A stretch of DNA of 40,962 nt, from positions 1-40,962 of the forward strand of contig VHCN01000025.1 of the NCBI GenBank assembly GCA_016871675.1. Reading direction: 5' to 3'. Position numbers and translations under genes: made by a program. How positions within the stretch are numbered: position 1 is the first letter of the stretch; every line of letters begins with the position of its first letter. The notes under the pieces were generated by a model. That model was not told the origin of the DNA. It saw only the letters and a list, made by a program, of their open reading frames with translations, and did no database searches. Source of the DNA: Verrucomicrobiota bacterium. GTDB lineage: Bacteria > Verrucomicrobiota > Verrucomicrobiia > Limisphaerales > VHCN01. This document shows, piece after piece, positions 10,371-36,033 of this stretch.

Positions 10371-11153
10371 TCACCCGGAAGGCGCGCGGGCGGACTCGGG
10401 CTTCACGGCGGGCGCGGCAGGCTTCGGCCGGGGCGAACGGCGGCATCCATGCTGCAGCCACAGGCTCCAGACCATCCACAGCGCCTCGCGCACGATCTTC
10501 TTCGACATCTTCGACGTGCCCAGAAAGCGGTCGGTGAAAATGATCGGCACCTCGGCAATCGTCCACCCGTCGCGCCAGAGTTTGTGCGTGAGTTCGATCT
10601 GAAAGCTGTAGCCGTTGGACCGGACGGCCTCGAGGTCGAGCGCCTGGAGCGCATGCCGGCGGAAGCACTTGAACCCGCCCGTCGGGTCGCTGATGCGCAT
10701 GCCGGTGATGAGCCGGACATACTTGCCCGCGCCGAGGCTGAGCATGAGCCGCGTGAGCGGCCAGTTGATGACGCGGATGCCATTGCAATAGCGCGAGCCG
10801 AGCACGAGGTCCGCGTGCTGCGCGGCGGCGAGGAATTTGGGGATGTCATCCGGGCTGTGCGAGAAGTCGCCGTCCATCTCGAGGATGAACTCGTAGCCGC
10901 GTTCGAGCGCCCACTTGAAGCCCGCGATGTAGGCGCGGCCAAGGCCGTCCTTCGTCTGCCGGTGCAGCACGTGGATTTGCGGGTGCTTCGCCGCAAGTTC
11001 GTCCGCGAGCCTGCCTGTGCCGTCCGGCGAGTTGTCATCCACCACGAGCATGTCCACAGGCACGGGAAGGCCGAGCACGCGCGCCGCCAGCGGAAGGAGA
11101 TTGTCCTTCTCGTTGAAGGTGGGAACGACGACGAGGGTTTTGCCCGTGCTCAT
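10371..11153 (-). CDS. Polyprenol-phosphate mannosyltransferase-like (DPM1-type) GT2 enzyme
   Basis: The 260-residue protein matches single-domain dolichol/polyprenol monophosphate mannose synthases in length and motif order. These are VVVPTFNEKDNL at residues 8-19, LVVDDNSPDGTG at 36-47, the DxD site EMDGDFSHSPDD at 92-103, VLGSRYCNG, and DPTGGFKCFRR near the acceptor loop. A catalytic-region segment (SNGYSFQIELTHKLWRDG) and IIFTDRFLGTSKMSKKI complete the pattern. The enzyme moves a sugar from GDP-mannose, or a related donor, to a lipid phosphate at the inner membrane, for use in glycan or protein glycosylation. The C-terminal 25 residues are a basic, proline-rich tail. No membrane extension is present, unlike GtrB-type homologues. 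The gene is transcribed divergently from the protease gene. Confidence 0.9.
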   Translation of the reverse strand: MSTGKTLVVVPTFNEKDNLLPLAARVLGLPVPVDMLVVDDNSPDGTGRLADELAAKHPQIHVLHRQTKDGLGRAYIAGFKWALERGYEFILEMDGDFSHSPDDIPKFLAAAQHADLVLGSRYCNGIRVINWPLTRLMLSLGAGKYVRLITGMRISDPTGGFKCFRRHALQALDLEAVRSNGYSFQIELTHKLWRDGWTIAEVPIIFTDRFLGTSKMSKKIVREALWMVWSLWLQHGCRRSPRPKPAAPAVKPESARAPSG

Positions 11154-11288: not shown

Positions 11289-12674
11289 ATGAAGCCACAC
11301 ACCCGACTGCTGTTGCTCGCGGCCGCGGTGCTCACGTTCGTGCGCGCGGCGGGCGCGGCGGATTCCTTCGTGTGGCGCGCAACGCAGGACCGCGTGGACG
11401 CCGACATCCGCGGCTGGGAACTGCCGCAACTTCTCGAGCACATCGCCAGCGCCACCGGCTGGCAGGTGTTCGTCGAGCCCGGCACGCAGCTCAAGCAGCC
11501 CGTGACGATGCGTTTCCAAAAACTCCCGCCGGGTCAGGCGCTCGACCGGTTGCTGGGCGACTTGAGCTTCGGCCTCGTGCCGCAACAATCCGGCCCGGAC
11601 AAACTGCTCGTCTACCACACCTCGCGCGACGGAGCCACGCAGCGCGTCAAGCCGCGCGCCAGGCCGGGCGACGACAAGCGCATTCCCGACGAACTCATCG
11701 TCATGCTCCGGCCCGGAAGCGGCGAGGACGTCGACAAGCTCGCCGCCCGGTTCGGCGCGAAAGTCGCCGGCCGCGCGGACAAGCTGGGCGCATTTCGATT
11801 GCAGTTCGGCGACGAGGCCGCCGCAAGTGCCGCGCGCTCCGCGCTGCTCGGCAACGACAGCGTCGCCGTCGAAAACAACTATCCCGTGCAACGCCCGGCG
11901 GATCCGAACGCGCCCGCCGCCGCAGGCGTGGTCGCCCCCGGACTTGGCGTGAAACCCGGCGCGGGACCGGACTCCGGCCGGTTCATCGTCGCGCTCGTGG
12001 ATTCCCCGGTGCAATCGCTCACTTCGCCCTACCGGGACTTCATCCTCCCGACCATCTCCGTGGCGGGCGAATCCACGCAGGGCGGCACGTTCCCGACGCA
12101 CGGCACCTCGATGGCTGAGACCATCTTGCGCGGGTTGGACCGCTCGACGGACTCGACGACGACCCAGATGCGAATCCAACCCGTGGACGTTTATGGGGAC
12201 TCACCGTCGACGACGACCTTCGAAGTCGCGAAGGGCGTCGCCGAGGCGGTCAACGGCGGCGCGTCCATCGTGAACCTCTCGCTCGGCAGCCCCGGCGACA
12301 GCCCGCTGCTGCACCGCGTCATCAAGGAAGGCTTCAACCGCGGCGTGCTGTTCACCGCGGCCGCAGGCAACGAGCCGACGACATCGGCGAATTATCCCGC
12401 GGCGTATCCCGAAGTGCTCGCCGTCACCGCGCGCGACCGCTCCGGCGCCATCGCGCCTTACGCGAACCGCGGCACGTTTGTGGACGTCGCTGCGCCCGAC
12501 AGCCAGGTCGTGAACTACGCCGGGAAAAACTACGTGGTCAGCGGGACGTCCGCCTCGACGGCTTACATCAGCGGATACGCGGCGGGCCTCGTGATGGAGA
12601 ACGGCGGCAAGCCCATCTCGGCGGCGAAGGCGTTGGTGCCGATCTTCACACCCGTGCCGAGAACGAGACCGTGA
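11289..12674 (+). CDS. Exported S8 (subtilisin-like) serine protease with N-terminal STN-like domain
   Basis: The protein has 461 residues from the ATG at 11289, which starts a clear signal peptide (cleavage near 23). Residues 33-110 (VDADIRGWELPQLLEHIASA, then QPVTMRFQKLPPGQALDRLL) resemble the secretin/TonB short N-terminal (STN) fold. Residues 131-200 look like a protease propeptide (PDELIVMLRPG, then a repeated alpha/beta pattern). The catalytic domain follows with Asp238 (IVALVDSPV), His271 (FPTHGTSMAE), oxyanion Asn361 (AAAGNEPT) and nucleophile Ser421 (VSGTSASTAYISG). All four are in family order. It should act outside the inner membrane. The gap between Asp and His is short, and the C-terminus ends about 40 residues after the serine. 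The STN call is by pattern. Confidence 0.85.
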   Translation: MKPHTRLLLLAAAVLTFVRAAGAADSFVWRATQDRVDADIRGWELPQLLEHIASATGWQVFVEPGTQLKQPVTMRFQKLPPGQALDRLLGDLSFGLVPQQSGPDKLLVYHTSRDGATQRVKPRARPGDDKRIPDELIVMLRPGSGEDVDKLAARFGAKVAGRADKLGAFRLQFGDEAAASAARSALLGNDSVAVENNYPVQRPADPNAPAAAGVVAPGLGVKPGAGPDSGRFIVALVDSPVQSLTSPYRDFILPTISVAGESTQGGTFPTHGTSMAETILRGLDRSTDSTTTQMRIQPVDVYGDSPSTTTFEVAKGVAEAVNGGASIVNLSLGSPGDSPLLHRVIKEGFNRGVLFTAAAGNEPTTSANYPAAYPEVLAVTARDRSGAIAPYANRGTFVDVAAPDSQVVNYAGKNYVVSGTSASTAYISGYAAGLVMENGGKPISAAKALVPIFTPVPRTRP

Positions 12675-12742: not shown

Positions 12743-13303
12743 TTACACCGCCCGGCGCCGGGTGACCCGGACCGCCGTGTAACGCGCCTTCTTGAGGATG
12801 AACTTCTTCACCTCCACAGTCACCTCCTGCGCCGGGAATTCCTTCAGCAAGTCGGACACGATGTCGTAAGCGAGCTTCTCGATCAGCTTCCACGCCCGGC
12901 CATCGCCAAAGCGCAGCACCCGCTCATACACGCGCTGATAGTCAATCGTGGTGGCCAAAAAATCCGTGGTGGCCGCGGCAGTGAAATCGCTCGTCAACTC
13001 GACGGAGATCAGCAGCCGCTGCGGCTTCGACCGCTCCTCGTCTGGAACGCCGACGTGATAGTGGACCTCGACGTCGTGGAGAATGATCCGGTCGGCCGCG
13101 GGCAATTCGCGTTCAGCCTTCGCGAGCCGGGAGAAATGGACCGTTGCGGAACCCTTGCTCGACGCCGGCGCGAGTTCCGCGGGTTCGGCGGGCGGCCCCT
13201 CGGGAATCACGGGCGCTGGCTCGGCGTTCGGCGGCGGCTCGGCCGGGGCGCGCGGCGCCTTCCCCTCGCCGAGCCGGTCCGGGATTTTCGGGTTCGACCG
13301 CAT
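12743..13303 (-). CDS. folB: Dihydroneopterin aldolase (FolB family)
   Basis: FolB cleaves 7,8-dihydroneopterin to 6-hydroxymethyl-dihydropterin and glycolaldehyde in folate synthesis. The 186-residue protein carries the full domain at residues 70-186: DRIILHDVEVHYHVGVPDEER, holding the glutamate of the pterin pocket; TIDYQRVYERV, whose tyrosine contacts substrate; WKLIEKLAYDIVSDLL, holding the pterin-anchoring glutamate; and VTVEVKKF, holding the catalytic lysine. The first 69 residues are an unusual proline- and alanine-rich extension not seen in standard FolB (about 120 residues). The ATG at 13303 lies one base after the stop of the HAD-Nudix gene, so translation is probably coupled. No start codon near residue 65-70 would give a standard-length protein, so the extension seems real. 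FolX and other members of the fold are less likely alternatives. Confidence 0.85.
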   Translation of the reverse strand: MRSNPKIPDRLGEGKAPRAPAEPPPNAEPAPVIPEGPPAEPAELAPASSKGSATVHFSRLAKAERELPAADRIILHDVEVHYHVGVPDEERSKPQRLLISVELTSDFTAAATTDFLATTIDYQRVYERVLRFGDGRAWKLIEKLAYDIVSDLLKEFPAQEVTVEVKKFILKKARYTAVRVTRRRAV

Positions 13304-22040: not shown

Positions 22041-22209
22041 CGCGAAAGGTATCAGTGGCGATGGGAGTGTCAAGCGTGCCAGCGGCCATGAATAGGCTTT
22101 GCAAGCACAAGTCGAAATCGTGTCGTCCTCCCGACGCCACGCACCGCGCGATTTCGCGGGATTGCGCCGACGGGTTCGACGCGGCAGAGTATCCGCAAAC
22201 CAGTCTTTC

Positions 22210-24678
22210 ATGCGCTCCGCAGTCATTGATTCTCCGAACCACGCCAGACGGTCACGCACCGGGCCCGCGTCCGCACTGCTTGCGAGCGCCCTGCTCGCCG
22301 CCTCCCCCGCGGCGGCGCAGGACTACGAATTCTTCGAGAAACGCATCCGGCCGATTCTTGTCGAGCATTGCTACGACTGCCACAGCGAGGCTTCAAAGAA
22401 AGCCAAGGGCGGACTGCGGCTCGACACACGCGAGGCGCTGCTCAAGGGCGGCGATTCCGGCCCCGCGCTCGTCCCGGGCGAGCCCGACAAGAGCAAGCTC
22501 GTGCTCGGCGTGCGTTACGCGGACAGCGAATTCCAGATGCCGCCGAAGTCCAAACTTTCCGACGCGCTCATCAAGGACCTCGAGGCGTGGGTGAGGATGG
22601 GCGCGCCCGATCCCCGCACTGCGGCCGCGAGCGCAACGGCGCCGCGGCCGATCGACATCGCGGCGGGACGCAAGTTCTGGGCGTTCCAACCGCCAAAGGA
22701 CCCGCCCGTGCCCCGAGTTCGAAACTCCTCGTGGGCGAAGTCGTCGCTCGACAAGTTCATCCTCGCGAAGCTGGAGGAACACGGCGCGAAGCCTTCATTG
22801 CCCGCGGACCGCCGCGTGTTGCTGCGCCGTGCCACCTTCGATCTCACCGGCCTTCCGCCCACGCCCCAGGAGATGGACGACTTCCTCGCGGACAAGTCGG
22901 CGGACGCGTTCTCGAAGGTCGTCGAGCGGTTGCTCGAATCCCCGCACTACGGCGAACGGTGGGGACGGCACTGGCTCGACGTCGCGCGCTACGCGGATTC
23001 GAACGGCCTCGACGAAAACGTCGCGCACGGCAACGCGTGGCGCTACCGCGACTACGTGGTGAACGCGTTCAACCGCGACAAACCCTATGACCAGTTCCTG
23101 GTCGAGCAGATCGCGGGCGACCTGTTGCCGCCGACGGCGAGCACCACGATCCGCCACGAGCGGCTCACCGCGCTCGGCTTCCTCGCGATGGGTCCGAAGC
23201 TCCTCGCCGAACCGGACAAGGTGAAGCTCGAGATGGACCTCATTGACGAGCAGATCGACACGCTCGGCCGCGCCGTCACCGCCATGACGCTCGGCTGCGC
23301 CCGCTGCCACGATCACAAATTCGACCCGCTGCCGACCGACGATTACTACGCGCTCACCGCGATCTTCAAGAGCACGCGCACGATGGACGACCTCAAGACC
23401 ATCGCCAAATGGCACGAGCCGCTCGTTGCGTTGCCGGCGGACTTCGCGGCGAAGGAGGCGCACGAGAAACTCATCGCCGCGCAGAAGCTCGCCGTCACCA
23501 ACGCCGTCGCCGAGGCGAACAAGGCGCTCCTCGCAAGCCTCAACACGAACGCGCTGCCACCGCAGCCTGAAAGCCGATACCCGACGAACACAACGGCGGC
23601 GTTGACGAAGTTGCGCGACGAACTCGCACGGCTCGAGAAATCGGCGCCCGAACTGCCGAGCACGATGGGCGTGACCGAGGCGACCAACATTTTGAAGGCG
23701 TTTCCCGTGTTCATCCGCGGCAACCCGCTCACACCCGGGCGCGAAGTGCCGCGGCGCTTCCCGCAAGTCATGAGCGCGCGCGAGGAGAAGCTCGGCGACC
23801 AGCAGAGCGGACGGCTCGAACTCGCCCGCTGGCTCGCGAGCGCGGAGCATCCCCTCACCGCGCGGGTGATGGTCAACCGGATCTGGCGCTGGCACTTTGG
23901 CACGGGGATCGTCGCGAGCACGGACAACTTCGGCCAGCTCGGCGAGCGGCCGGTAAACCAGCCGCTGCTCGACTGGCTCGCGCACCGCTTCATCGAAAGT
24001 GGCTGGTCGGTGAAACAACTCCACCGGCTCATCCTGCTCAGCGCGACATATCAACAATCGTCGGGCGGCGCCACGTCCGCCCACGCCGACGGACGCCTTC
24101 TCTCGCTATTCCCTCCCCGCCGCCTCGAGGCCGAGGAGATTCGCGACGCGCTGCTCGCCGTCAGCGGACTGCTCGACCGCACGATGGGCGGCAAGACCAT
24201 CCCGCAGAAGAACCGCGAGTTCGTCTTCAACCACACGTCGAAGGACGAGACCGGCTACCAGTCGCTGCGCCGGTCGCTTTACCTGCCGGTCATTCGCAAC
24301 AACGTGTATCCCGTGTTCGACCTGTTCGATTTTCCCGACCCGGCGCAGCAGACCGGCAACCGCGCCACCACGACCGTCCCTTCACAGGCGCTCTTCTTCA
24401 TGAACAGCGACCTCATGCAGCAGGCGTCCGCCAAGCTCGCATCGGGCCTGCTCGCGGACGGCTCGTTCGACGACGCCCGCCGCGTTGCGCGCCTCTACTC
24501 GCTCGCCTACGGTCGGGCGCCGTCGGGACTCGAGCTTGGCAAGTCACTCGTCTTCCTCGACCGCGCCGCCTCGCTGGTCGAAGACCGGCAGCCTGACGCC
24601 GCGCAGCGACACGCGCAGGCCTGGACCGCGCTCTGCCAAGCCGTGCTGTCGGCGAATGAGTTTGTGTATCTGAATTGA
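22210..24678 (+). CDS. DUF1549/DUF1553 protein with cytochrome c-type heme site (PSCyt1)
   Basis: The protein has 822 residues with a signal peptide ending near residue 36 (ASPAAAQ). The N-terminal planctomycete cytochrome c domain (about 38-135) has CYDCH at residues 54-58. DUF1549 follows at about 178-390 (ATFDLTGLPPTPQEMDDFL, ESPHYGERWGRHWLDVARYA) and holds a second CxxCH at 363-367 (GCARCHDHKFDPL). DUF1553 covers about 560-800 (RVMVNRIWRWHFGTGIV, RRLEAEEIRDALLAVSG, TTTVPSQALFFMN). The function is unknown; family members are encoded with DUF1501 proteins and sulfatases in Planctomycetota and Verrucomicrobiota and are thought to act on complex polysaccharides or in electron transfer at the envelope. 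I started at the ATG at 22210, before the signal peptide. It overlaps nothing and is followed after three bases by the DUF1501 gene. Confidence 0.92.
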   Translation: MRSAVIDSPNHARRSRTGPASALLASALLAASPAAAQDYEFFEKRIRPILVEHCYDCHSEASKKAKGGLRLDTREALLKGGDSGPALVPGEPDKSKLVLGVRYADSEFQMPPKSKLSDALIKDLEAWVRMGAPDPRTAAASATAPRPIDIAAGRKFWAFQPPKDPPVPRVRNSSWAKSSLDKFILAKLEEHGAKPSLPADRRVLLRRATFDLTGLPPTPQEMDDFLADKSADAFSKVVERLLESPHYGERWGRHWLDVARYADSNGLDENVAHGNAWRYRDYVVNAFNRDKPYDQFLVEQIAGDLLPPTASTTIRHERLTALGFLAMGPKLLAEPDKVKLEMDLIDEQIDTLGRAVTAMTLGCARCHDHKFDPLPTDDYYALTAIFKSTRTMDDLKTIAKWHEPLVALPADFAAKEAHEKLIAAQKLAVTNAVAEANKALLASLNTNALPPQPESRYPTNTTAALTKLRDELARLEKSAPELPSTMGVTEATNILKAFPVFIRGNPLTPGREVPRRFPQVMSAREEKLGDQQSGRLELARWLASAEHPLTARVMVNRIWRWHFGTGIVASTDNFGQLGERPVNQPLLDWLAHRFIESGWSVKQLHRLILLSATYQQSSGGATSAHADGRLLSLFPPRRLEAEEIRDALLAVSGLLDRTMGGKTIPQKNREFVFNHTSKDETGYQSLRRSLYLPVIRNNVYPVFDLFDFPDPAQQTGNRATTTVPSQALFFMNSDLMQQASAKLASGLLADGSFDDARRVARLYSLAYGRAPSGLELGKSLVFLDRAASLVEDRQPDAAQRHAQAWTALCQAVLSANEFVYLN

Positions 24679-24681
24679 ACC

Positions 24682-26133
24682 ATGAAACCGCGCCCCGTCG
24701 CATCCCTCTCCCGCCGCGACGCGCTCCAGCGCGCGGCGTCGGGCTTCGGCTGGCTCGCGGCTTCGGCGCTGCTCGCGGACAAGAGCGCGGCCCAATCCGC
24801 AATTCGCGGTCCGCAAGCCGCAATTCCCGCCAACCCGCTCGCCGCGCGGCCGCCGCAATTCCCGGTGCGCGCCCGGCGCGTCATCTTCCTTTTCATGAAG
24901 GGCGGGCCGTCGCACGTGGACACATTCGACTACAAGCCGCTGCTCCAGCGTGACGACCGCAAGCCGCTGCCGTTCGCCAAGCCGCGCGTCACGTTCGCCA
25001 AGACCGAAAACCTCCTCGCGTCGCCGTGGAAGTTTGAGAAGCGCGGCCAGAGCGGCATCGAGACCAGCGATCTCTTCCCGCACGTCGCGCAGTGCGTGGA
25101 CGACATGTGCTTCATCAACTCACTCCACGGCACGAACCCGGCGCACGGCGGCGCGTGCCTGAAGCTCCACACGGGCAGCGACAACTTCGTGCGCCCGAGC
25201 ATGGGCGCGTGGGTCGCCTACGGGCTCGGCACGGAGAACCAGAACCTGCCCGCGTTCATCACCATCTGCCCGACACTCGCGCACGGCGGGCTCAACAACT
25301 GGGGCTCGGCGTTCCTGCCCGCGCCGTTCCAGGGCACGCCCATCGGCAACGCGAGCGTGCCGTCCGACCAGGCCGCCGTGCGCTACATGAAGAACGACGC
25401 GATGCCGCGCGACCTTCAGCGCGCGCAACTCGACTTCCTCAACGAGATCAACCGCGAGCACCTCCGCCGCTCGGCCGACGCCGCGGCGCTCGAAGGTCGA
25501 ATCGCATCGTTCGAGCTCGCGTTCCGGATGCAAAACGAAATGCCCGGCGCGCAGGACATTTCCGGCGAAAGCCCGGCGGTGAAGCAACTCTACGGCCTCG
25601 ACGACCCGGTCACGGCGCCGTTCGGCCGGCAGTGCCTCATGGCGCGGCGGTTTGCGGAGCGCGGCGTCCGGTTCATCCAGGTGTCGCACAGCGACGGCGA
25701 CGTGCAGTGGGACCAGCACGGCAACTTGCGCAAGGGCCACACGAAAAACGCCGCCGAGGTGGACAAGCCCATTGCCGGGCTGTTGAAGGACTTGAAGTCC
25801 CGCGGCCTGCTCGACGACACGCTCGTGATGTGGGGCGGCGAGTTTGGCCGAACGCCGACTTCGCAGGGCACGGCTTATGACGGGCGCGACCACAGTCCGG
25901 AAGGATTCACCATGTGGCTCGCCGGCGGCGGCGTGAAGCCCGGCATCCGCCACGGAGCGACGGACGACTACGGCTACTACGCACAGGTGAACAAGGTCCA
26001 CATCCACGACCTGCACGCGACGCTGCTCGCGCTGCTCGGGCTCGACCACGAACGGCTCACCTTCCGCCACGCCGGCCGCGATTTCCGCCTCACGGACGTG
26101 CACGGACACGTCGTGAAAGAAATCTTTGCCTGA
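24682..26133 (+). CDS. DUF1501 Tat-exported protein (sulfatase-like fold)
   Basis: The 483-residue protein begins with a twin-arginine signal (SRRDALQRAASG, residues 10-21). It continues with the DUF1501 opening (RRVIFLFMKGGPSHVDTFDYK), then the central FGRQCLMARRFAERGVRF, VQWDQHGNL and LVMWGGEFGRTPTSQG, and a C-terminal DLHATLLALLGLDHERLTF. The metal-binding Asp and His residues of an alkaline phosphatase/sulfatase-like fold are visible in these segments. The activating C-x-P-x-R motif of sulfatases is missing, so it is not a formylglycine sulfatase. It is the constant genomic partner of the DUF1549/1553 protein and starts three bases after it. The substrate is unknown; the role is probably in the same envelope process. 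Confidence 0.92.
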   Translation: MKPRPVASLSRRDALQRAASGFGWLAASALLADKSAAQSAIRGPQAAIPANPLAARPPQFPVRARRVIFLFMKGGPSHVDTFDYKPLLQRDDRKPLPFAKPRVTFAKTENLLASPWKFEKRGQSGIETSDLFPHVAQCVDDMCFINSLHGTNPAHGGACLKLHTGSDNFVRPSMGAWVAYGLGTENQNLPAFITICPTLAHGGLNNWGSAFLPAPFQGTPIGNASVPSDQAAVRYMKNDAMPRDLQRAQLDFLNEINREHLRRSADAAALEGRIASFELAFRMQNEMPGAQDISGESPAVKQLYGLDDPVTAPFGRQCLMARRFAERGVRFIQVSHSDGDVQWDQHGNLRKGHTKNAAEVDKPIAGLLKDLKSRGLLDDTLVMWGGEFGRTPTSQGTAYDGRDHSPEGFTMWLAGGGVKPGIRHGATDDYGYYAQVNKVHIHDLHATLLALLGLDHERLTFRHAGRDFRLTDVHGHVVKEIFA

Positions 26134-27317: not shown

Positions 27318-29183
27318 ATGAATTCCCATCCCGTGAGCCGCCGACTCGCCGCGCTCTTCCTCCTCCTCGCGCCCGCCTTCACGCCGTCCCTCAATGCCGC
27401 GCCCGCGCCGCCGCTCAACTTCATCTTCATCCTCATCGACGACTTCGGGTGGACGGACCTCGGCTGCTACGGCAGCAAGTTTTATCAGACGCCGAACCTC
27501 GACCGGCTCGCGGCCGAGGGCATGCGTTTCACCGACGCGTATTCCGCGTGCCCGGTGTGCTCGCCGACGCGCGCGGCGATCATGACCGGCAAGTATCCCG
27601 CGCGCCTGCAGATCACCGACTGGCTGCCCGGCCGCTCCGACCGCCCGACGCAGAAGTTGCTGCGCCCCGTCATCAAGCAGCAGTTGCCCCTCAGCGAGAC
27701 GAGCCTCGCCTATGCCCTCAAGCCGCCCGGCTACACAAGCGCGAGCATCGGCAAGTGGCATCTCGGCGGCGCGGGCTTTTCGCCGCGGGCGCACGGCTTC
27801 GACGTGAACATCGCGGGCGACCACACCGGCACGCCGATGAGCTACTTCGCGCCGTTTCGGAACAACACCGGCCAGATGCCCGGCCTCGGCACCGCGCCCG
27901 AGGGCGAGTATCTCACCGACCGCCTCACGGCCGAGGCGGAGAAGTTCATCACCGCGAACACCAACCGGCCGTTCTTCCTCTACCTGCCGCACTTCACGGT
28001 GCACATCCCGCTGCGCGCGAAGGAGGCGCTCGTTGCGAAGCACGCCGCGCGCACGCCGCCCGTGGGCTCCACGCACACCAACGCCATCTACGCCGCGATG
28101 ATCGAGAGCATGGACGACAGCGTCGGCCGCATCCTCAAGAAACTCGACGACCTCAAGCTCGCCGACCGCACGGTGATCTTCTTCACCGCGGACAACGGCG
28201 GGCTCGCGGTGAAGGAAGGGCCGAACACGCCGAGCACCTCAAACGCCCCACTGCGCGAGGGCAAGGGCTACCTCTACGAAGGCGGCATCCGCGTGCCCCT
28301 CATCGTCCGCTGGCCCGGCGTGGTGAAGCCCGGCGCCGTGAACGCCACGCCCGTGAGCAGCATTGATTACTTCCCAACCTTGCTCGAACTCGCGGGCGGC
28401 AAGGCCGACGCGTCGCGTCCGGTGGACGGCACATCACTCGTCCCCGTGCTGAAAGGCGGCGAACTCAAGCCGCGCCCGCTCTTCTGGCACTATCCGCACT
28501 ACGCGAACCAGGGCGGCAGACCCGGCGGCGTGGTGCGCGAGGGCGATTACAAGCTCATCGAATTCTATGAAGAGGGCCGCTGGGAACTCTACAACTTGAA
28601 AGACGACCTCTCCGAGCAAACCAACCTCGCCACCAAGGAACCCGCGAAGGCCGCGCAGCTCGGCCGCAAGCTCGACGACTGGCGCGTCGCCGTGAAAGCC
28701 CAGATGATGCTCCCCAACCCGAACTTCTCCGCCGCGGCCGAGTCCGCCCCAAAGAAGGAAGCCACGCTCGTGCGGCAGGATGCGGACGGCACGGTGCTGC
28801 TTCACTCGCGCGACGCCACCGTCCACGGCGCAACGCTGCGCTACGAGCCGCAGACGAACAAAATCACGCTCGGCTTCTGGACCAAGAAGGAAGACTGGGC
28901 GAGCTGGGACTTCCAAATCGTGAAAGCCGGGCGGTTCGAGGTGGAAATCCTGCAAGGCTGCGGCAAAGGAAGCGGCGGCGCGGAGGTGGACTTCCTCGTC
29001 GCGAACCAAAAGCTCAAGCACACGGTGGTGGACACGGGGCACTTCCAGAACTTCCAGCCCTACAAGCTCGGCACCGTGGAGATCACGGTGCCCGGCCGCT
29101 ACGAACTCGCCGTCAAGCCGCAGACCAAGCCCGGCGTGGCGGTGATGGATTTGCGGCAGGTCACGCTCAAGCCCGCGAAGTGA
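27318..29183 (+). CDS. Secreted formylglycine-dependent sulfatase with C-terminal accessory domain
   Basis: The 621-residue protein has a signal peptide (cleavage near 28) and the S1 sulfatase pattern. Metal-binding Asp41 and Asp42 lie in FILIDDFGWTDLGCYG. The activation motif is C81-S-P-T-R85 (CSPTRAAIMTGKYPARL), whose cysteine must be oxidised to formylglycine. Further motifs are GKWHLGG with catalytic Lys and His, and FFTADNGG with metal ligands. The catalytic part ends near residue 460. The last 130 residues form a beta-rich domain (TLGFWTKKEDWASWDFQIVK, GRYELAVKP) resembling a sugar-binding module. It would remove sulfate from a polysaccharide or similar ester outside the cell or in the periplasm. 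No maturation enzyme is encoded in the window. The subclass cannot be assigned safely. Confidence 0.93.
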   Translation: MNSHPVSRRLAALFLLLAPAFTPSLNAAPAPPLNFIFILIDDFGWTDLGCYGSKFYQTPNLDRLAAEGMRFTDAYSACPVCSPTRAAIMTGKYPARLQITDWLPGRSDRPTQKLLRPVIKQQLPLSETSLAYALKPPGYTSASIGKWHLGGAGFSPRAHGFDVNIAGDHTGTPMSYFAPFRNNTGQMPGLGTAPEGEYLTDRLTAEAEKFITANTNRPFFLYLPHFTVHIPLRAKEALVAKHAARTPPVGSTHTNAIYAAMIESMDDSVGRILKKLDDLKLADRTVIFFTADNGGLAVKEGPNTPSTSNAPLREGKGYLYEGGIRVPLIVRWPGVVKPGAVNATPVSSIDYFPTLLELAGGKADASRPVDGTSLVPVLKGGELKPRPLFWHYPHYANQGGRPGGVVREGDYKLIEFYEEGRWELYNLKDDLSEQTNLATKEPAKAAQLGRKLDDWRVAVKAQMMLPNPNFSAAAESAPKKEATLVRQDADGTVLLHSRDATVHGATLRYEPQTNKITLGFWTKKEDWASWDFQIVKAGRFEVEILQGCGKGSGGAEVDFLVANQKLKHTVVDTGHFQNFQPYKLGTVEITVPGRYELAVKPQTKPGVAVMDLRQVTLKPAK

Positions 29184-31412: not shown

Positions 31413-33680
31413 TCAGGCCGCCTGCGGCAACCCGCGCTTCGTGCCGCGCCAAATCCAGGCGCACACGAGCAGCGCGAGCCCGCTTAGCGCAGCGCCCGCC
31501 GCGAGTCGCGGCTCGCGATACTCCAGCACCACGCGCTTTGCCCCCGCGGGCAGCTCGATGGCTTGGAACGCGTGGTTCGCCCGCCACACGCGCGTGGCTT
31601 GGCCATCCACGGTGGCGGTCCAGCCGGGATACCACGTTTGCGCGACGACGAGCATCGCCGCGCCCGCGGTCTCCACCGTTACTTCCACGCGCCGCTGCGT
31701 GAAGCGGGCATCGAGAATCTTGGCACGCGAAGTGTCCGTCGCCTTCACGACGGCGGCGGCTTCCGCCGGGAGCAGAACTTCAACGTCGGGCTGAAACTGC
31801 TTTGAGCCCAGCGCGCGCGATGTGGCCTCGGCATCGGCGAACACCGGCCGCTGGCCGATGCTCACCCACAGACGCGGGCTGGCACGCGGCACGAACTTCA
31901 TCACTTCGCCCGGCGCCGTCACATGCGACACGCCGAGGAAGTCCATCAACCGCGGGAACTCGTTCGTCGAGCCGTAGAGCAACCGGTTCACCTCCGCCGA
32001 CTCGCGGGACACGAGCGTGGTCGCGCCGTTCACCTTTGGCAGGTGGTCGAGGTGGTTCAGGTTGCCCCAAAGCGCGACGCGCTGGGCTAGGAAGTCGTTC
32101 TTAAAGTCCGGCAACATGCGCGTGTGCAGGTCGAGCTCCGCGCGCGGCGAGAGCATCGCGCGCCCCTCGCCCACGCGGGGTGCCGGGTCGAGCTTGTGAT
32201 ACGCCTGCGCCAGCCCCGGCCCGAAGACGTCCGCCGGGATGGTCGGATTCTGTCGCGGGCTGTGCGTAACGAGGTCGAGCCAGAACAGAGCGAGCACGCC
32301 AAGCTGGAGCGCCAACTTCATGGGCTCTCGCGACTGGCCGGCGACCAGCCGCGCCACTGCCAGCACGAGCGCGAACAAGACAACCCGGACCACGGCATTC
32401 ACCGCCGTCGATTGAACGTCATCCGTCGGCAGTGCCGAGTGCTTCGCCCACAACAACACGACTCCGACCACCGCAGCCGCAAGCACTGCGAAAGTGCCCG
32501 CACGTTGAACCTTGAACTTCGAACCTGGACCTTCGCCACAAGCGAACGCCGCCATCAGCGGCAGCGTGAACGCCGTCAGCAAGATGAACTTCACCGGGAA
32601 GCGCATGAACTCGACGGGCGCCAGCATCGCAATTACCGGATAAAGAAACCCGTTCGTCCCCATCGCCATCAGCACCGCGAGCGCCGTCGCCGCCGCGAGC
32701 ACCCACACGCGCCGGTCGCGCATGCGCCACACGGCCAGCGCCGCGAGTGCGAGCACGCCCAGCCCCGCGTAGTAGCTCGGCAGGAACGATTGTCCCGCCT
32801 GCACGTAGATGCCCTGCGGCGTCTTGAAGCAGTGGAACAGCGGCACGATGAAGTTCGCCCAGCCCCACGCCGGCAGCGACCAGAAGCCCGCGCCAAACTC
32901 TCCGCCGCCAAAGCCCCTCGCCCGTTGTGAGACGGACAGCAGTTGGAAAAATGGCATCAAGATCACCGCGCACAAACCGGCCACCAACGCGACGGTCGCG
33001 AGAAACCGGCCGGCGACCTGCCGCTTATTGACCCGTGACCCGTCATCCGTAGTTCCAGCAAGCGCCGCGCACAGCCCCCAAGTCATGAGAATGAGTTCCG
33101 GCGCGCCCGACATCATCTGCATCGCGCCGGCGAGCGCGGCAAGGACGACGTTCCGGCCGCCTTCCGCGCCCGCGCGTTGCACGAGCAGCACCACCCACGG
33201 CATCCAGCCGAACGTGACGAGGTAGTTCGGATAGATGTGGCTTGTCAGCGACGTGCCGCCGAACACGAACGCCACGCCCGCGACGCCCGCGGCGAAGGAC
33301 GAACCCGTCCAGCGATGCGCCAGCGCGTGCATGCCAAGGCCGCCGAGCATCCAGTGCGCGAGGCAGAACACGCCCAGCCCCCACGGCAGCGGCAGCAGCA
33401 GGTAGATCAGCGAGCCCGGATACAGCGCGAGCGTGTTCCATTGCGCGAGGAACGGCGCGCCGCAGTTCACGTAGGGATTCCACAGTGGCAGCTCGCCATT
33501 CCAGAAGCACTCGCGCGCGTAGAACACGAACGGATAGCCGAGGAACCCGTAGTCGCGGTAGAAAAACGCGCCCGTCCCGAGCACCACGCCGGGAAACGTG
33601 GCGAACAACAGCACGCCGAGAAGGAGCGCGAAGCGGCGCGGATTAAACCAGGCGGAACCGTCCATTGCGTCATTGGCCAT
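31413..33680 (-). CDS. YfhO-like multi-spanning membrane protein, copy A
   Basis: The 755-residue protein has about twelve hydrophobic helices and a soluble, periplasmic C-terminal part. Near the N-terminus it carries [20 protein letters not shown] and [20 protein letters not shown]. These match YfhO-like and other GT-C type membrane glycosyltransferases, where an acidic residue in the first loop (here the aspartate in YRD) is catalytic and a lipid-linked sugar is the donor. The C-terminal segment ([40 protein letters not shown]) is the beta domain common to YfhO proteins. Its start overlaps the end of copy B by 11 bases. It is probably an enzyme of cell-surface glycosylation; donor and acceptor are unknown. 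Confidence 0.82.
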
Positions 33681-36033
33681 GGGTCAATCGCTTCCCCCGC
33701 CTCCACATCACGCCGCACACGGCAAGCGCGGCGAGCGAGATGAGGCAGCCGATGCGGAACTTCCGGTCTTCATACGCGAGGCGCACGCGGTGCGTGCCCG
33801 CGGGAACTTCAAGCGCCTGAAACGCGTGGTTCGCGCGCAGCAGCGGCACGGGCTTGTCGTCCACGTATGCCTTCCACGGATGATAAAACGTCTGCGCGAT
33901 GGCGACGAGGGCGGGGACGTCCGCCGTGACTTCGCATTCCACACGATTTGCCGACCAAGACTGCTCGCGAAGGCTCGCCAATGACGGGCCGGTCACCGCA
34001 ACCTTCGACCGGTATTCGGCCGGCAGGTGCACCTGGCCCCGTGGGTCGAACAAACCAGAGAATAGCAACTGCAATGTAGCCGAACTTTCCCTCTTCTCCC
34101 CGAACAGGGGCCGTTGACCGGCAGTGATGAATGGGAGACTTGATGGCCGACTCACCCCGGCAAGATTCGTCATCCCTGTGAGCACGTTTCCCACCCCAAG
34201 GAAGTTCAACAGCGCTTCGCTTGGCGCTGCATTCGAGGCGTAAATCCAGCTTTGCAACTCGTCCTGCTCGCGAATGCGCAGCGTGGAGGAGCCGTTCACC
34301 TTCGGCACACCGTCGAGCGCGTTGAGGTTCGACCAGAACGCGCGCCGCTTGAGGGCGAATTCCTGCGCCCAGTTCGTGGCACCGATGTGGAGCAGCGTCC
34401 GCTCGGCATCAGGCGAGATCATCAGCCGGCCATCGCCAGGCCTGAGCGCGATGCCTGTGGCTTCACGGCCGAGATTCGGCGCGAAGAGCTTCGCATCGAG
34501 CGTCGGATTCTGGTTCTTCAGATGCGTCAATCCGTCCGCCGCAATCAAGGCAAGTGTTGCAAGCCCTGCGAGCAAGCTCGTGCGCTGGCGCGGTCCGGCG
34601 CAGGCGTTGAACAGCATCGCCAGCGAACAACCGAAGAACAGCATCCGACCAACCGTGTTCGCCACGGTTTCGTCGAAGCGGTCGTAGGTCAGCGGGTGGC
34701 CGCGCATCCACCACAGCACGAGCAGCGCGATCGCCGGCACCAGCGTGGCGAGGACGAGCAGCGGCTGCCATTCAGTCGCCGATGGCCGATGGCCCATGGC
34801 CCATGGACCTGATGCCGTCGCGTCGCTCGCGCCGTCACGGGACAGGCACCACTTCACGCCGAATGCCGCGAGCAGCGACACGACGAACGCGACGAGGATC
34901 AGGAACTTCACCAGGTAGCGCGCGATGCCCACGACCGGGATGACCTTGTGCAGGAGCGGGAAGAGCGGCCCGTTGTTGCCCATCGCCAGGAGCACGGCGA
35001 CCACGCCAAGCGCGGCGAGCAGCACCACGCGGCGGTCGCGCACGCGCCACACGGCCAGCGCCGCGAGCGCGAGCGCGGCGGCGCCTGCGTAACACGAGGT
35101 GAGGAACTCCTGTCCCTGCATGAAATAGAACTCCTGCGGCGACATCGCGCAGCGGAACATCGGCACGAGCAGGTTCGCCCAGCCCCACGCGGGCAGCGCC
35201 CACTTGCCGACGGCCTGCGACGGGTCGCGCTGCGAATGCGTGAGCAGGTCGAAGAATGGCAGCAGTTGCGCGGCACAAAGGGCCGAGACGAGTGCGAGGA
35301 TGAGCGCAAATCGCAATCCGTAATGCGTCACCGGAACCCGGCTTCCGTCTTCCGTCTTTCGTTCCACGGATTCCACCGACAGAAGGCCGCCCAGCACGAT
35401 CCACGTGAACACCACAATCTCCGGCGTGCCCGCAAGCATCTGCATCGAGGCGGCGAGCGCGGCGAGGACGACTGTGCGGCCGCCTTCCTTCCACGCGCGC
35501 TGGACAAGCAGCACAACCCACGGCATCCAGCCGAGGGCGACGGTGTAGTTCGGCCAGATGAGGCACGCGAGCGTGATGCCGTTGAAGACGAACACCGTTC
35601 CCGCGACAGCCGCGCCGAAGCGCGAATGGGTCCAACGCTCCGCCAGCTTGAACATGCCGATGCCGCCGAGCCACAAGTGCAGGAGGCAGAACACACCGAG
35701 CGACCACGGCAGCGGAAGCAGCACGTAGAACAGCGTGCCCGGATAGAGCACCATCGTGCCCCATTGCGCGAGGAAGGGCGCGCCGCAGTTGCTCAGCGGG
35801 TTCCACAGCGGCAATTCGCCCGACCAAATGGACTCGCGATGGTAATGCACAAATGGATACGCGAGCACGCCGTAGTCCGAGCGGAAAAACGACTCCGCGC
35901 CGAGCCACACCGTCGGGAATGCGGCGAACAGCGCCGCGAGCAGAAACAGCGCGAACCTCGGCAGCGTGAAACACGCGTCGAGTGTGGCAACACGGCCGCC
36001 CGCGCCCGCCGGAATGGTTGCATCACGGCTCAT
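33670..36033 (-). CDS. YfhO-like multi-spanning membrane protein, copy B
   Basis: The 787-residue protein is a paralogue of copy A, clearly similar over its whole length: [40 protein letters not shown], the repeated [13 protein letters not shown]-type segment ([19 protein letters not shown]), and the C-terminal AQTFYHPWKAYVDDKPVPLL. It therefore arose from a tandem duplication. Multiple membrane helices are followed by a periplasmic beta domain. The aspartate in FRSDYG corresponds to the YRDYG of copy A. It overlaps the upstream truncated copy by 11 bases and the downstream copy A by 11 bases, so the three are translated in series. Function is inferred as for copy A: a GT-C-like transfer from a lipid-linked sugar. 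Confidence 0.82.
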   Translation of the reverse strand: MSRDATIPAGAGGRVATLDACFTLPRFALFLLAALFAAFPTVWLGAESFFRSDYGVLAYPFVHYHRESIWSGELPLWNPLSNCGAPFLAQWGTMVLYPGTLFYVLLPLPWSLGVFCLLHLWLGGIGMFKLAERWTHSRFGAAVAGTVFVFNGITLACLIWPNYTVALGWMPWVVLLVQRAWKEGGRTVVLAALAASMQMLAGTPEIVVFTWIVLGGLLSVESVERKTEDGSRVPVTHYGLRFALILALVSALCAAQLLPFFDLLTHSQRDPSQAVGKWALPAWGWANLLVPMFRCAMSPQEFYFMQGQEFLTSCYAGAAALALAALAVWRVRDRRVVLLAALGVVAVLLAMGNNGPLFPLLHKVIPVVGIARYLVKFLILVAFVVSLLAAFGVKWCLSRDGASDATASGPWAMGHRPSATEWQPLLVLATLVPAIALLVLWWMRGHPLTYDRFDETVANTVGRMLFFGCSLAMLFNACAGPRQRTSLLAGLATLALIAADGLTHLKNQNPTLDAKLFAPNLGREATGIALRPGDGRLMISPDAERTLLHIGATNWAQEFALKRRAFWSNLNALDGVPKVNGSSTLRIREQDELQSWIYASNAAPSEALLNFLGVGNVLTGMTNLAGVSRPSSLPFITAGQRPLFGEKRESSATLQLLFSGLFDPRGQVHLPAEYRSKVAVTGPSLASLREQSWSANRVECEVTADVPALVAIAQTFYHPWKAYVDDKPVPLLRANHAFQALEVPAGTHRVRLAYEDRKFRIGCLISLAALAVCGVMWRRGKRLTHGQ

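Follow-up and report, generated by a model that had tools for sequence, protein, structure and literature searches.

A subtilisin-like protease with a predicted STN/N0-type domain is found across an order of the Verrucomicrobiota

The window analysed here, by which we mean the whole stretch of 40,962 nucleotides, comes from a bacterium of the order Limisphaerales (phylum Verrucomicrobiota). On its plus strand, at 11289..12674, lies a gene for a predicted exported protein made up of an STN-like domain, a propeptide and a peptidase S8 domain (STN-S8), as delimited by its open reading frame and by Pfam. The frame is open from the ATG at 11289 to the TGA at 12674, giving a product of 461 amino acids followed by the stop. 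The same reading frame opens further upstream, with an ATG at 10449, and the start is taken at 11289 because a signal-peptide-like stretch comes directly after it and relatives begin at a similar position. The gene stands by itself, flanked by a divergent family 2 glycosyltransferase gene (10371..11153, minus strand) and a convergent folB gene for dihydroneopterin aldolase (12743..13303, minus strand). Its surroundings showed no promoter- or terminator-like site, a result that is weakly informative in this organism.

Elsewhere in the window, a gene for a Planctomycete-type cytochrome c with DUF1549/DUF1553 is followed directly, on the same strand, by a DUF1501 gene (22099-26133), and a sulfatase gene lies near both (27318-29183). 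Two overlapping same-strand genes at 31413-36033, each with a C-terminal YfhO match, are possibly tandem duplicates.

The preliminary description of this gene had recognised a signal peptide, an STN-like domain, a propeptide-like region and the Asp-His-Asn-Ser set of an S8 peptidase, and this layout is borne out by the reading frame, Pfam, the predicted fold and the family alignment. Residues 1-24 (11289..11360, plus strand, as are all parts of the gene) form the signal-peptide-like stretch, assigned from sequence and modelled as a low-confidence helix at residues 5-16; no lipobox was seen in it, and by eye we place the probable cleavage site near AGA/AD. The STN/N0-like domain follows at residues 26-112 (11364..11624), delimited by fold, profile and conservation. 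It has the order strand-helix-strand-strand-helix-strand-strand and holds the TGWQVFVEP motif conserved in the order. A fervidolysin-type propeptide at residues of about 128-200 (11670..11888), placed by PF22148 and by structural alignment, is joined through a poorly conserved linker (residues 201-226; 11889..11966) to the S8 catalytic domain at residues 227-440 (11967..12608), placed by Pfam and by structural and family alignments. In the full-length model, made with 24 sequences (mean pLDDT 87.3), the N-terminal domain, the propeptide and the catalytic domain are separate. Their mean pairwise identities in the family alignment are 41, 43 and 48%, respectively, and that of the linker, which is the likely site of autocleavage, is 25%.

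Peptidase_S8 (PF00082) matches at 2.1e-24 (86.8 bits against a cut-off of 21.8) and Fervidolysin_NPro-like (PF22148) at 6.4e-7 (30.1 bits against a cut-off of 21), the latter family also matching 24 of 24 relatives at E 0.1. The catalytic residues are Asp238 (12000-12002), His271 (12099-12101) and Ser421 (12549-12551), with the oxyanion Asn361 at 12369-12371, and all four are kept in 91 of the 94 aligned family rows, about 92 of which are unique as judged by 63-mer. The exceptions are two short frames that end before the C-terminal part (L164 and L166) and L093, in which the catalytic His has gone through a short in-frame loss, making it either an inactive copy or an assembly error. Structural alignment with VIA-align superimposes residues 133-459 of the full model on pro-subtilisin E (3whi; Z 31.1, rmsd 3.1, 295 residues) and residues 126-460 on fervidolysin (1r6v; Z 27.3, rmsd 3.3, 304 residues). 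On the profile, the triad with its oxyanion Asn and the modelled propeptide-subtilisin fold, we assign the protein to the S8 peptidases and predict that it is proteolytic.

The arrangement of a propeptide followed by an S8 domain with Asp, His, Ser and the oxyanion Asn is that of fervidolysin, Tk-subtilisin and pro-subtilisin E. The window protein differs from these and from other pro-subtilisins in the STN/N0-like domain that precedes its propeptide; among the best 50 structure rows for the full model, only 3afg aligned from before model residue 126, at residue 41. The best NCBIfam match of the S8 domain is the type VII secretion system (T7SS) mycosin family TIGR03921 (2.8e-23). Despite this likeness, the protein falls far under the equivalog cut-off (82.6 against 278.75 bits), and the match covers only residues 304-432.

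For the N-terminal domain, Pfam STN (PF07660) matches the window protein at E 0.031, with 14.6 bits against a cut-off of 28.4, and at E 0.1 it matches only 7 of 24 relatives, the best at E 0.004. Modelled alone, the domain gives a pLDDT of 91.9 and a pTM of 0.80. When this model was compared with the PDB by Foldseek, all of the first 25 rows were secretin N0-type domains, TonB-receptor signalling domains, BfpG or the anti-sigma factor BDI_1681, including N0 of GspD, XcpQ, PulD and PilQ and the signalling domains of FpvA and HasR. The best match has E 2.1e-3 and probability 1.00, no row reaching E 0.001, and phage tail-hub proteins, which share the fold, are placed lower. VIA-align gives Z 8.4 against GspD N0 (76 residues, rmsd 2.4) and up to Z 7.9 against phage or contractile tail-hub proteins.

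At the sequence-profile level, the best PDB chain is 9u5s_R (E 3.5e-4), which is BfpG, a small lipoprotein with one such domain that was solved in the BfpB-BfpG complex; PilQ, HasR and GspD appear at E 0.19-0.9, among unrelated rows that include chains of complex I. The evidence we regard as strongest for an STN identity is the profile-profile match to secretins of the same order. With hhalign, the N-domain profile aligns with three of these at E 1.9e-7 (probability 93.7), as compared with E 0.04 to 0.93 for all 25 control families, which were taken from the same neighbourhoods, and the aligned secretin region is Pfam STN over cut-off in the one secretin scanned. We conclude from these profiles and models that the domain is of the STN/N0 type, diverged beyond Pfam's model. 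A chance similarity to STN is ruled out by the predicted fold, the profile-profile match and the 25 controls.

The possibility that residues 33-110, where the preliminary description had placed its STN-like domain, are instead a stretch of propeptide is likewise ruled out: the structure prediction gives these residues a separate STN/N0-like fold, and the propeptide is a domain of its own at about 128-200. The window protein shares with secretins (GspD, PilQ) and TonB-dependent transducers (FpvA, HasR, FecA) a fold that in each case belongs to the N-terminal part of an exported protein. It differs from both in having the domain, which falls below the Pfam STN cut-off, fused to a protease, and in carrying neither a secretin pore nor a TonB barrel, Pfam seeing only S8, the propeptide and a weak STN. 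It differs from BfpG in that the 114-residue BfpG chain is a lipoprotein and has no enzyme domain.

When the order was searched with the whole protein, 293 of its 320 genomes gave a match at E 1e-10 or better, as did 151 of the 154 good genomes. The match is weak (E above 1e-40) in 22 of those 293, the remainder being 271 of 320, and a search with the N-domain profile finds 278 of 320 and 147 of 154. STN-S8 is an order-wide family, nearly universal in good genomes, and not an odd fusion. Close relatives also occur in records titled Akkermansia muciniphila or Klebsiella pneumoniae (L003, L008, L010 and L019), which are apparently mislabelled metagenome bins.

In a sample of the phylum, 142 of 387 genomes match the whole protein. 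Among the matches listed, the alignment starts at residue 50 or earlier for at least 18 genomes from other classes and for no genome from another order of the same class. S8 relatives of about 550 residues from other orders, taken from 18 phylum loci (L104-L121), divide into eight with an STN-like N terminus and ten without, several of the latter beginning with an apparent membrane anchor. A profile of seven or eight of these STN-like N termini matches the N-domain profile of the order at E 9.2e-12. The STN-S8 layout is also present in other classes of the phylum.

The N-terminal domain is not confined to S8 proteases. We inspected 35 genomes (15 and 20), a non-random set in which the searches of the order disagreed, gave two N-domain matches or gave weak or partial ones. 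In 10 of the 15, all belonging to family f54, the STN-like domain is joined to a domain of more than 200 residues with an HExxHxxxxxH motif (L168, L170-L178), which reads HELGHALGLPH in some of these proteins. This zincin-like domain is likely a metalloprotease; of the Pfam families, Peptidase_M10 comes nearest to it, with 9.8e-4 and 0.004 for the two proteins scanned, both under cut-off. Two of the genomes (G171 and G180) carry the S8 version too (L179 and L180). In G182-G188, which are 50-95% complete, the single N-domain match found is the zincin-like one, and the S8 version has likely been lost. In 5 of the 20 genomes, the N-domain lies on frames of 188-241 residues that have no protease domain (L203-L207), and three further matches in the same set are secretins (L210-L212), the first of them confirmed by Pfam. 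The frames of 188-241 residues encode exported proteins, some having EF-hand-like tails and some being glycine-rich; the EF-hand-like match of L204 is under cut-off.

These occurrences bear on a rival account of the domain, namely that it docks to nothing and is an added piece of the pro-segment, which assists folding or holds the protease in an inactive state up to its removal along with the propeptide. Its position N-terminal to a fervidolysin-type propeptide would suit such a role, as would a degree of conservation, among the S8 proteins, close to that of the propeptide. However, the zincin-like version has no S8 propeptide and therefore speaks against the domain as a mere subtilisin folding aid, and the fold resembles the N-domains of secretins and TonB receptors, with none of the best 50 Foldseek rows being a subtilase or a subtilase propeptide. 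We consider this account unlikely. Since it turns up both on a zincin-like metalloprotease and in proteins that lack a protease domain, the STN-like domain is a conserved module and not merely part of a propeptide.

Gene neighbourhoods were clustered for 65 loci, in which at least two contigs are counted twice (L003/L122 and L005/L123); antisense frames within the protease gene made up the most frequent clusters and were disregarded. Across these loci the STN-S8 gene has no general gene partner, and genes for secretins, TonB receptors or anti-sigma factors are not among its recurrent neighbours. A folB-type gene adjoins it in 14 of 65 loci and a HAD-NUDIX gene likewise in 14. Ten of the 65 (L013, L015, L022, L125, L129, L130, L133, L137, L156 and L160, of which L137 is a short frame), spread over several families of the order, have a TIGR03790-type gene immediately upstream in the same orientation, the gap to the first possible start ranging from a slight overlap to about 110 bases. 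The TIGR03790 family is presumably linked to exosortase, and the STN-S8 protein might work with its upstream-encoded member in these relatives, perhaps maturing sorted surface proteins. The family was confirmed by NCBIfam for L013 only. The genome of the window does have one TIGR03790 match, on another contig. No such gene is adjacent in the window, however, nor in the remaining loci, at least 45 of which extend over 1500 bases upstream, and a partnership of this kind seems to us improbable.

A further alternative is that of a signalling protease, in which the STN domain would recognise STN-like domains, either those of TonB receptors or those of FecR/PupR-type anti-sigma factors, and regulated proteolysis of the partner would fall to the S8 domain. 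Contacts of STN with STN-like domains are described for cell-surface signalling (PMC11637429, a paper whose title concerns the protection of an anti-sigma factor from proteolysis), and the match of the N-domain fold to BDI_1681 would fit as well. Against this, the genome of the window has only one FecR match and no Pfam STN match at E up to 0.1 other than that of the STN-S8 gene, and the 65 loci hold no recurrent anti-sigma neighbour. We regard such a role as improbable.

The reading that we prefer, tentatively and with slightly more doubt than confidence, is that of a Sec-exported subtilisin zymogen whose precursor bears an N-terminal STN/N0-type domain for protein docking. In essence, the STN domain would, after export, bind an STN-type or ring-forming periplasmic partner, for which a secretin N-domain is the leading candidate, and would thereby position the zymogen ahead of propeptide cleavage. 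A cut between the propeptide and the catalytic domain would then free or activate the protease at the docked place. The main difficulty for this reading is that the STN domain lies ahead of the propeptide, so that maturation of the usual subtilisin kind would part it from the enzyme. Were the propeptide cut as in other subtilisins, the STN domain would leave too, and docking would be a matter of delivery or timing and not of permanent anchoring. If, on the other hand, the propeptide remained bound, as it does in fervidolysin and PCSK9, the tether to the enzyme would persist.

The four secretin matches (PF00263) in the genome of the window are a point in favour of docking. Counted against it are the lack of a recurrent secretin, receptor or anti-sigma neighbour, the sub-cut-off Pfam STN match, the absence of a Foldseek row at E 0.001 and the sharing of the fold with tail-hub proteins. 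A precedent, by analogy, is BfpG, a small protein of one domain that is in complex with the secretin BfpB. The preliminary description had suggested from its domain assignment that the protease could be tied to a transport or signalling complex. The assignment stands, on the predicted fold and the separate propeptide; the tie, plausible as it is, finds no support in a conserved secretin, TonB-receptor or anti-sigma gene nearby.

A broader form of the docking reading would make this a core system of the order, in which STN/N0 is a docking module of general use, bringing exported serine and metallo proteases to a secretin-based envelope machine, autocleavage then releasing or activating the zymogen. 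We think this unlikely; if true, it would amount to an undescribed arm of secretin systems that delivers proteases or processes substrates.

The whole STN-S8 protein is described by neither Pfam nor NCBIfam, and our literature search found no publications on the family. What is new is an unnamed, order-wide family of STN proteases, a layout that reaches other classes and a predicted STN domain that is common to two types of protease. Since one and the same STN domain can carry either an S8 or a zincin-like catalytic domain, the docking idea can be tested directly. A protease of the STN-S8 layout is present in nearly every good genome of an order with few cultured members. Were its STN domain to dock to envelope rings, this would be a protease addressed through a domain of the secretin type, offering a handle on the delivery or processing of surface proteins in these bacteria.
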